Origin: Opitutales bacterium
Lineage (GTDB): Bacteria; Verrucomicrobiota; Verrucomicrobiia; Opitutales; JAJFLR01
DNA length: 37,192 nt
Reading direction: 5' to 3'
Assembly: GCA_021772565.1 (NCBI GenBank)
Contig: JAJFLR010000029.1
Span: 1 to 37,192 of the forward strand
The stretch's first letter is position 1; every line of letters begins with the position of its first letter. Both the position numbers and the translations under genes were made by a program. Positions 17,829-34,526 of this stretch are shown here, one piece after another. The notes beneath the pieces were generated by a model. It worked only from the letters and a program-made list of their open reading frames with translations. It had not been told where the DNA came from and did no database searches.

Positions 17829-18575
17829 ATGAAGATATTAAATACAATCAAAAGCACCGCTCTTAAAGCATCTTTAATTAGTGGTTTAACATTACTAGGG
17901 GCCATGCAAGGTTATGGTGCACAATTCACGCATAACATAACTAATGGAACAGTTGGTTCACCACTTACTTTAAATCAAATTGGCTTAACTTACTCAGTGC
18001 CAAAGTTTGATTCTAGTTTGGGAACTTTGACTAGCATAGATTTTACCTTTAATGGTACTGTTGCTGGCGATAAGAAGATGGAAAGTCAGGATGCTACTGC
18101 TACTAATGGTAATATTCTAACATTGAGTGCTTCATTTAATATTGATGATCCACTAGCTGCAGGAAACCTATTATTTGCTTCTGCACAAGATCAGACATTT
18201 CATAATTTAGGTGCGTTTGATGGCACTGTTGATTTTGGTGGCGCATCAGGTGTTACTGTAAGTGGAGTTTCAGCGTCTGATAGTGATTCATTTACTGATA
18301 CATCTGCCGGTGGTTTAGCTCACTTTACTGGAACTGGAAATGTAGACTTAAATGGTAATTTTATAGGCACATCATTTGCTTCTGGACCATCTTCAGTGCA
18401 ATCAGAATTTACAGCGTTGGGATATGCTGATCTTGAGGTTGTATACAACTATACTGAAGCACCTGAAGGAAGTGTCCCATTTGGTTTTGACCCAATGATT
18501 GGCTTGTCAATCTTAGGAGCAGTTGGAGGATATGAAGTTCGCAGACGTAGAAATAAAGCTGCTAAAACTGAATAA
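17829..18575 (+). CDS. Secreted choice-of-anchor E-type protein with VPFGFDP sorting-like tail
   Basis: 248 residues. A signal peptide (1 to about 31, ending MQGYGA) is followed by a beta-rich, cysteine-free, acidic body. The segment VPKFDSSLGTLTSIDFTF with a following GTVAG…ME resembles the choice-of-anchor E domain seen on PEP-CTERM-type surface proteins. The C-terminus is tripartite like a sorting signal: a short VPFGFDP motif, a hydrophobic stretch (IGLSILGAVGG), and a terminal basic cluster (RRRR…K). PEP-CTERM tails are processed by exosortases, but the VPFGFDP motif differs from VPEP and recalls cyanobacterial PFE-type tails. No exosortase is in the window. The protein is probably exported and anchored at, or released from, the cell surface. 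It has its own promoter and terminator and is a paralogue of the next gene. Confidence 0.72.
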   Translation: MKILNTIKSTALKASLISGLTLLGAMQGYGAQFTHNITNGTVGSPLTLNQIGLTYSVPKFDSSLGTLTSIDFTFNGTVAGDKKMESQDATATNGNILTLSASFNIDDPLAAGNLLFASAQDQTFHNLGAFDGTVDFGGASGVTVSGVSASDSDSFTDTSAGGLAHFTGTGNVDLNGNFIGTSFASGPSSVQSEFTALGYADLEVVYNYTEAPEGSVPFGFDPMIGLSILGAVGGYEVRRRRNKAAKTE

Positions 18576-18594
18576 TTAACCAATAATGATTTTT

Positions 18595-18633
18595 AAAACC
18601 CGCCTCGCAAAATAACAGCAGGCGGGTTTTTTT
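18595..18633 (+). terminator. Intrinsic terminator after the first surface-protein gene
   Basis: Perfect 11-bp stem AAAACCCGCCT/AGGCGGGTTTT around CGCAAAATAACAGC, followed by a T-run, 20 bp after the stop codon. Confidence 0.92.
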
Positions 18634-18681
18634 ATCCCCAAAAATATTTAACAGTATATTTATAATCTAAAAATACGAAAG

Positions 18682-19491
18682 ATGAAGTCCTTTAAATCAC
18701 TATCAAAAGTAGCATTGAAAGCACATTCTGCCTTAATTTTAGCTGTCTCACTATTTGCGATTTGTAATCAAGGATTTGCCGATACTCTACCGGAAAACAC
18801 AGTCAATATCGGTTCACAATCTACTCCTATTACCCCAGATACAACTTTGAATCTTTCTATCCCAAAATTTGATTCATCTCTTGGCACATTAACCGCAATT
18901 AACTTTAACTTGGACGGTACTGTTTTTGGAAGCATGGGAATGGAAAATTTAAGTGTTTTTCAGCCCACCTTCTTTAATTTAATAAGTCTCTCGGCATTTT
19001 TTGAATTGGATACTCAATCCGGACAGAGTTTAATTAATGTCAATCCATCTGATTTCGAATTAGTTGGAGACAGCCTTGATCCATTTAATGGATTAACTAC
19101 TTATGATGGAACTACAGATTTTTCTGGTACTTCCGGTGTAACATTCAACAATATTGAAAATTCATCATCAGCTGCAGCGACAAATATAGATTCAGGGGTT
19201 TTAGCATTATTTACAGGTTCTGGAAATATTGATTTAGTGCTCGATATCACAGACGTTTCATTTGCCGTCAGTCCATTAGAAAATCCTGAAACTTCACCAG
19301 ATGATTATGAATTTACTGCATTTCAATTTAATACATCAACTTTTGCAACATTAGGTGTCGAGTATGAGTTTACGCCTGCTGCAGCACCTGGTGCCGTTCC
19401 TTTTGGATTTGATCCAGTTATTGGACTTTCAATTATTGGAGCTGCTGGTAGCTGGGAAATAAAAAGGAGAAGGCGTCGAATAAAAAAATAA
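18682..19491 (+). CDS. Second choice-of-anchor E-type protein with VPFGFDP tail
   Basis: 269 residues. The signal peptide covers about 1-33 (ending NQGFA). The body repeats the neighbour's blocks in order: IPKFDSSLGTLTAI, DGTV-G…ME, LSAFFELD, a DGT-DFSGTSGVT segment, a long Ser/Ala stretch, and ALFTGSGNIDL. The tail is VPFGFDP, a hydrophobic IGLSIIGAAG and a terminal K/R-rich cluster. It is clearly a diverged tandem duplicate of the upstream gene. A TATAAT at 18661-18666 lies only 15 bp before the ATG, so a separate promoter with a very short leader is possible. The upstream terminator argues for independent expression. Confidence 0.72.
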   Translation: MKSFKSLSKVALKAHSALILAVSLFAICNQGFADTLPENTVNIGSQSTPITPDTTLNLSIPKFDSSLGTLTAINFNLDGTVFGSMGMENLSVFQPTFFNLISLSAFFELDTQSGQSLINVNPSDFELVGDSLDPFNGLTTYDGTTDFSGTSGVTFNNIENSSSAAATNIDSGVLALFTGSGNIDLVLDITDVSFAVSPLENPETSPDDYEFTAFQFNTSTFATLGVEYEFTPAAAPGAVPFGFDPVIGLSIIGAAGSWEIKRRRRRIKK

Positions 19492-19517
19492 CTGGTATTA
19501 TATAGTAATATTTAAAT

Positions 19518-19553
19518 AAACTCGGTTAGAATTTATCTAAGCGGGTTTTTTTA
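19518..19553 (+). terminator. Intrinsic terminator after the second surface-protein gene
   Basis: Stem AAACTCGGTTAGA/TCTAAGCGGGTTT with a short ATTTA loop and a following T-run, about 25 bp after the stop. The stem has one mismatch and a G-U pair. Confidence 0.85.
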
Positions 19554-30997: not shown

Positions 30998-31399
30998 TCA
31001 CTTCACAAACTCTCGTGGAGTAACTGCAACTTTTGGAACAGCCTTTAAAATATTTTTATCCATTGTAACTAATTTTACGCCCAAATTTTTAGCCAGTACA
31101 ACAAACTCAGCATCATAAGCAGAAAATTTTGTTTTTTGGGTTAATTCTAATACAGATATTGAAGTTACGATATATTCACGGTCAGCTAACATTTGTTCTG
31201 CTTTTCCCATTGTAGCAATTGCTTGCTGCACATTCATTTTTGTGACCCCCATATAAGTGGTCAGTATATTTCTAAACTCGGATCGCCACAACATTGGCAC
31301 TACCCAATTGTCATCCTTTTGATAGACATTTTCAGCTTCTAAGTTTCTTTCACCTGGAATTAATAGATAAGAGATTAAATTGGTATCGGCGACGATCAT
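30998..31399 (-). CDS. PIN-domain toxin (VapC-like ribonuclease)
   Basis: 133 residues. The PIN acidic site is visible: D5 (MIVADTNLI), E41 (WRSEFRN), D96 (SAYDAEFV) and D114 (TMDKN). Such proteins are Mg-dependent ribonucleases that cut tRNA or rRNA and are kept silent by a cognate antitoxin. The start overlaps the stop of the upstream antitoxin gene by 4 bp, the usual coupled arrangement. The operon is enclosed by the repeat phrases described here. Confidence 0.9.
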   Translation of the reverse strand: MIVADTNLISYLLIPGERNLEAENVYQKDDNWVVPMLWRSEFRNILTTYMGVTKMNVQQAIATMGKAEQMLADREYIVTSISVLELTQKTKFSAYDAEFVVLAKNLGVKLVTMDKNILKAVPKVAVTPREFVK

Positions 31400-34208: not shown

Positions 34209-34526
34209 CTAGGAGGAAATAGATAACAGTTCACCAGGCTTGATATCAATTAAAGCGGATATACCGGAAGGAATAAGAGGTATTATATCGTCGTATCGGT
34301 TTGATTGAACCACGAGAACGATAATTGCTATTTTTGATGTGATGAGATTTTGTTGATACTGAATATTTTGATCTACTGTCAAGAAGACATCGAATTGATT
34401 TTCGATCTCTTTCAACAATTCTCCGTTGTCCAAACCAGCAAGTTTTAATTGACGAACTGTCGATACATCATGGGGTAATTCGTTTGCGACTCGTCTCGGA
34501 ACGCATTCATCCAGAATTATTTTCAC
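34209..34526 (-). CDS. DUF5615 PIN-like toxin
   Basis: 105 residues. The start MKIILDECVPRRVANELP (D6), GLDNGELL (D33) and FDVFLTVDQNIQYQQNL (D46, D52) match the DUF5615/Mut7-C-like PIN-related family. This family is usually the toxin partner of DUF433 antitoxins. It probably acts as a ribonuclease on cellular RNA. The gene overlaps the DUF433 stop by 4 bp. A composition-neutral AT-rich gene. Confidence 0.87.
   Translation of the reverse strand: MKIILDECVPRRVANELPHDVSTVRQLKLAGLDNGELLKEIENQFDVFLTVDQNIQYQQNLITSKIAIIVLVVQSNRYDDIIPLIPSGISALIDIKPGELLSISS

Follow-up and report, generated by a model that had tools for sequence, protein, structure and literature searches.

The window (the whole 37,192-nucleotide stretch of DNA analyzed, contig JAJFLR010000029.1 of the Opitutales bacterium assembly GCA_021772565.1) carries on its forward strand two tandem paralogues whose products both end, as the first-pass annotation had described, in VPFGFDP, a hydrophobic IGLSI-x-GA-x-G stretch, and an Arg/Lys cluster, starting at residue 216 of the first protein and residue 239 of the second. 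The two genes and their parts are as follows:

17829..18575, + strand: first surface protein gene, 248 aa, choice-of-anchor E body and VPFGFDP tail
17829..17921, + strand: signal-peptide-like N terminus of the first protein (by inspection, no predictor)
17970..18452, + strand: choice_anch_E body of the first protein, residues 48-208 (NF033208, E 2.7e-29)
18474..18572, + strand: C-terminal tail of the first protein, with VPFGFDP (18474-18494), hydrophobic stretch, and RRRR cluster (NF050011, 25.1 bits; cut-off 24)
18595..18630, + strand: probable intrinsic terminator 3' of the first gene (-19.5 kcal/mol, z -6.0, then a U-run)
18682..19491, + strand: second surface protein gene, 269 aa, choice-of-anchor E body and VPFGFDP tail
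18682..18780, + strand: signal-peptide-like N terminus of the second protein (by inspection, no predictor)
18820..19368, + strand: choice_anch_E body of the second protein, residues 47-229 (NF033208, E 9.3e-23)
19396..19488, + strand: C-terminal tail of the second protein, with VPFGFDP (19396-19416), hydrophobic stretch, and KRRRRR cluster (NF050011, 15.5 bits, below the cut-off of 24)
19513..19553, + strand: probable intrinsic terminator 3' of the second gene (-14.6 kcal/mol, z -6.5, then a U-run)

Both N termini are hydrophobic, contain Lys, and look signal-like on inspection. The two bodies score 102.6 and 81.4 bits against NF033208, above its cut-off of 23.8, in agreement with their initial assignment to the choice-of-anchor E type, and no Pfam domain was found in the tail or body of either protein. 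The terminator hairpins were missed by a simple terminator scan and were revealed by folding; with a hairpin and a U-run 3' of each, the two genes have the appearance of separately terminated units. Neither adjoins an exosortase gene or an HpsJ gene. No homologues of the cargo proteins were found on plasmids, and their sequences had no significant match to solved structures. Elsewhere in the window, on the reverse strand, a PIN-domain protein (30998-31399) and a DUF5615/PIN-like protein (34209-34526) are possibly the toxin parts of toxin-antitoxin pairs.

A conserved tail on unrelated proteins

Between the two proteins, 18 of 25 tail residues are identical (72%), compared with 42% identity over the body in the amino acid alignment. 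At the nucleotide level the tails are 64% identical, and different codons encode 11 of the 18 shared residues, so the likeness of the tails reflects constraint at the protein level rather than a recent copy.

A search for the tail on other proteins of the genome returned three more carriers, so the refuting case named by the first-pass annotation, a tail confined to this pair, does not apply. The profile used was built from tails of this kind, including all five genome copies, so its recovery of those five (all at E ≤ 8.1e-12, with no sixth) is expected, and the count itself rests on profile searches. The general NCBIfam model, which was built without these tails, independently recovered all five, one at E 0.015 and the others at E ≤ 0.002. 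When the tail profile was run against 14 searched genomes without PFE tails, the best match had an E of 0.014. The three tails outside the window are found on an Asp-rich repeat protein (contig C62, IPFGFDPSLGLG) and on two HAF-repeat proteins (C82, VPFGFDPTIGLG; C93, IPFHFNPSIGIA). The choice_anch_E, HAF-repeat, and Asp-rich bodies are unrelated, and the tail occupies the extreme C terminus of each carrier.

The body of the C62 protein (L009:115-1602) consists almost entirely of Asp-rich GDDDDDxxGKD repeats and has no Pfam match, and an HpsJ_like_A gene lies immediately 3' of its gene. A third choice_anch_E domain occurs in a 2345-aa protein (G000:C118, L145:1587-8624) together with RCC1, DUF5122, Calx-beta, and trypsin-like domains; a sorting tail is absent from this protein.

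A probable divergent, Glu-less PFE-CTERM

Neither window protein matched PEP-CTERM models in Pfam (PF07589) or NCBIfam, even at E 10, and the Pro-Glu-Pro motif of PEP-CTERM is missing from both tails. The genome does contain PEP-CTERM, with 16 matches above the Pfam cut-off (at least 16 proteins), and the C46 tails were not among the matches when the organism's own genome was searched with PF07589. The model that the tails do resemble is NF050011 (NCBIfam PFE_CTERM, cut-off 24), against which the first window tail scores 25.1 bits and the second 15.5, with the tails on C62 and C82 above the cut-off (32.2 and 31.7 bits) and that on C93 below it (17.1 bits). The VPFGFDP tail is most probably a divergent form of a class already named, one that the first-pass annotation had itself put forward for comparison; that annotation was right to set the tail apart from PEP-CTERM, but comparison with profile models does not make it an undescribed class. 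PFE-CTERM had no mention in the open literature searched, its domain name having been given by NCBI curators.

Each of the genome's five tails keeps Pro-Phe but has Gly or His where Glu would stand. Across 15 Verrucomicrobiota tails, the residue after Pro-Phe is Gly in 11, Asn in 2, Asp in 1, and His in 1, and never Glu, whereas the fourth residue after Pro-Phe is Pro in every one of the 15. Cyanobacterial tails have Glu after Pro-Phe in 21 of 27 cases and lack it in 6. VPFDPG was read in three more tails picked up by the new profile. [VI]-P-F-x-x-x-P is a better signature for most of these tails. A more tentative idea is that the Glu-less PF-x-x-x-P class could form a Verrucomicrobiota sorting channel of its own beside PEP-CTERM, with each HpsJ_like_A paralogue partnering the adjacent cargo or exosortase, an arrangement we consider possible rather than probable.

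Exosortases and HpsJ_like_A proteins of the genome

The search for an exosortase-like protease that the first-pass annotation had proposed found six in the genome, five resembling EpsH/XrtD types and one, on contig C53, that is cyanoexosortase A-like and distinct from the EpsH type. The C53 exosortase is fused to a CrtA-associated domain, and an HpsJ_like_A gene adjoins it. Its score against TIGR03763 (130.2-132.5 bits) is below the cut-off of 150, as are those of long-form cyanobacterial cyanoexosortase A. Such long enzymes (about 525-550 aa) were seen below the cut-off in both phyla (G000:C53:71726-72439 and cyanobacterial loci L125-L136), and some of the cyanobacterial ones have no evident Cys-x-Gly by a simple pattern.

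The C53 enzyme has Cys192, Arg237, His255, and Gly259 (Cys-x-Gly, a downstream Arg, and His-x-x-x-Gly), residues that do not vary across 16 sequences, but it is missing the Asn of the Asn-x-x-Arg motif (PMC1569441). In the structural model the membrane core is a confidently predicted helix bundle and the C-terminal third is without confidence; the model had no significant match in the PDB, and the sequence matched no solved structure. Two of the EpsH-type exosortase genes are adjacent in divergent orientation (G000:C67:5921-8041).

Against NF050013 (cut-off 140), the HpsJ_like_A proteins on C110 and C62 score 164.4 and 146.2 bits, above the cut-off, and those on C25 and beside the exosortase score 134.0 and 123.0 bits, below it. 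No tail gene stands alongside the C110 and C25 copies, and a Rho factor gene precedes the former.

Co-occurrence in two phyla

A survey of 132 genomes of the order detected PFE tails in five, and the same five, with no others, give strong HpsJ_like_A matches (hypergeometric p of 3e-9, a value that overstates independence because the five PFE-bearing Verrucomicrobiota genomes represent two lineages only). A CrtA-clade exosortase is present in all five, each adjoining an HpsJ_like_A gene; exosortases of any kind occur in 91 of the 132. For nine of the 15 PFE genes an HpsJ_like_A gene is found no more than 1.2 kb away, and the tail gene, exosortase gene, and HpsJ gene are consecutive in genome G128. 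The choice_anch_E body family is modular, carrying the PFE-type tail here and a PEP tail in G093, a genome of the same order with no detected PFE tail, where a tandem choice_anch_E pair ends in VPEP tails.

The same parts come together in Cyanobacteriota. In 292 sampled genomes, PFE tails were found in 10, CrtA (at E 1e-20) in 50, and both in 8 (p of 1.5e-5). Most CrtA-bearing cyanobacterial genomes showed no PFE tail, and at the same threshold CrtA was not detected in two of the 10 PFE genomes (G211 and G260), a pattern suggesting that CrtA may also serve other tails. Cyanobacterial gene runs contain HpsJ_A, CrtA, the CrtA-associated protein, and a PFE-tailed protein; at loci L082, L142, L143, and L144, PFE-tailed genes of the Npun_F0296 family or choice-of-anchor Y type are joined with the other three. 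In G428, three consecutive PFE genes have Val in place of Glu.

In a tree, 50 exosortases fall on two sides (99/95): cyanobacterial CrtA together with the C53 enzyme and the PFE-linked enzymes of Verrucomicrobiota on one, and the EpsH type of the order on the other. The C53 enzyme is placed among cyanobacterial CrtA, but a topology uniting it with the other Verrucomicrobiota enzymes in one clade was not rejected (AU p of 0.29); for this reason we make no claim that the C53 exosortase was transferred from cyanobacteria.

Proposed mechanism and alternatives

We propose, with a probability of roughly 0.8, that the tail is a divergent PFE-CTERM signal recognized by the cyanoexosortase A-like enzyme of C53 together with HpsJ_like_A, and that the enzyme then cuts the protein and transfers it. 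By analogy with PEP-CTERM and exosortases (PMC1569441, PMC12188702), Sec would export both window proteins, and the C-terminal helix would hold them in the inner membrane, leaving the Arg/Lys cluster on the inner side and VPFGFDP exposed on the outer one. Recognition would take place there by the C53 enzyme, which has Cys192, Arg237, and His255 and the fused CrtA-associated domain, with an HpsJ_like_A protein assisting. The Cys would probably cut at or near the motif, and the protein would be passed to a surface or extracellular acceptor through a channel separate from that of PEP-CTERM proteins. For cyanobacterial CrtB, tail peptides were not detected either way (PMC12188702).

The most serious alternative keeps the tail as a sorting signal but assigns its reading to one or more of the five EpsH-type exosortases, which serve PEP-CTERM as well, and takes the link to CrtA as incidental. 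The genome has five such enzymes and at least 16 PEP-CTERM proteins, and the overall layout of the tail, being that of PEP-CTERM, would fit an EpsH-type reader. However, most of the 132 genomes of the order carry EpsH-type exosortases, whereas PFE tails are confined to genomes that have both HpsJ_like_A and a CrtA-clade enzyme; the tail genes also lie next to HpsJ_like_A and, in some genomes, next to the CrtA-clade enzyme. Together these observations make an EpsH-type reader improbable. Slightly less probable still is a role for the tail as an uncleaved membrane anchor, conserved only because of the needs of helix and topology. Although a hydrophobic stretch and a basic cluster alone would retain a protein in the inner membrane, a plain anchor has no need, on unrelated bodies, of a Pro-Phe that never varies or of a conserved Pro before the helix, nor any reason to co-occur with one exosortase clade. 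Finally, although the window genes are tandem paralogues, the differing tail codons and the presence of the same tail on unrelated bodies on three other contigs rule out chance or a recent copy as its origin and leave recent tandem duplication a negligible explanation for the likeness of the tails.

The reading of the tail as a PFE-CTERM signal served by the C53 enzyme extends the PFE-CTERM/cyanoexosortase A system to Verrucomicrobiota and ties tail, enzyme, and HpsJ to one another through co-occurrence and gene adjacency in two phyla. The suggestion that the tail marks a distinct sorting system of this lineage is sustained in part: the channel would be apart from PEP-CTERM, but the system, with its CrtA enzyme and HpsJ, is not peculiar to the lineage. 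A single cell with two coexisting exosortase channels that use different tails would open the substrate specificity of exosortases, as well as the part played by HpsJ, to direct testing.

Comparison with known systems

The body domain of both window proteins is that of choice-of-anchor E (NF033208), and the difference here is the PFE-type tail. The PEP-CTERM/EpsH system (PF07589, PF09721; PMC1569441) has in common with the present one a signal peptide, a short Pro motif, a hydrophobic helix, and a basic cluster, as well as the exosortase Cys, Arg, and His and single genes with their own terminators, most PEP-CTERM genes being single-gene units (PMC1569441). In contrast to PEP-CTERM/EpsH, the tails have no Pro-Glu-Pro and no match to PF07589 or TIGR PEP-CTERM models, and the associated exosortase belongs to another clade.

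The closest likeness is to a system whose parts all have models of their own, with the same tail profile (PFE-CTERM, NF050011), exosortase clade (cyanoexosortase A, TIGR03763), associated domain (CrtA-associated protein, TIGR04153), and companion (HpsJ_like_A, NF050013), and whose cyanobacterial form shows gene adjacency of the same parts. Compared to the cyanobacterial PFE-CTERM/CrtA system, the one described here is found in Verrucomicrobiota, lacks Glu at the position following Pro-Phe (0 of 15 versus 21 of 27 tails), and has its parts spread over contigs. The C53 enzyme also differs from cyanobacterial CrtA in joining exosortase and associated protein in one chain, a fused-length form that occurs in cyanobacteria as well.
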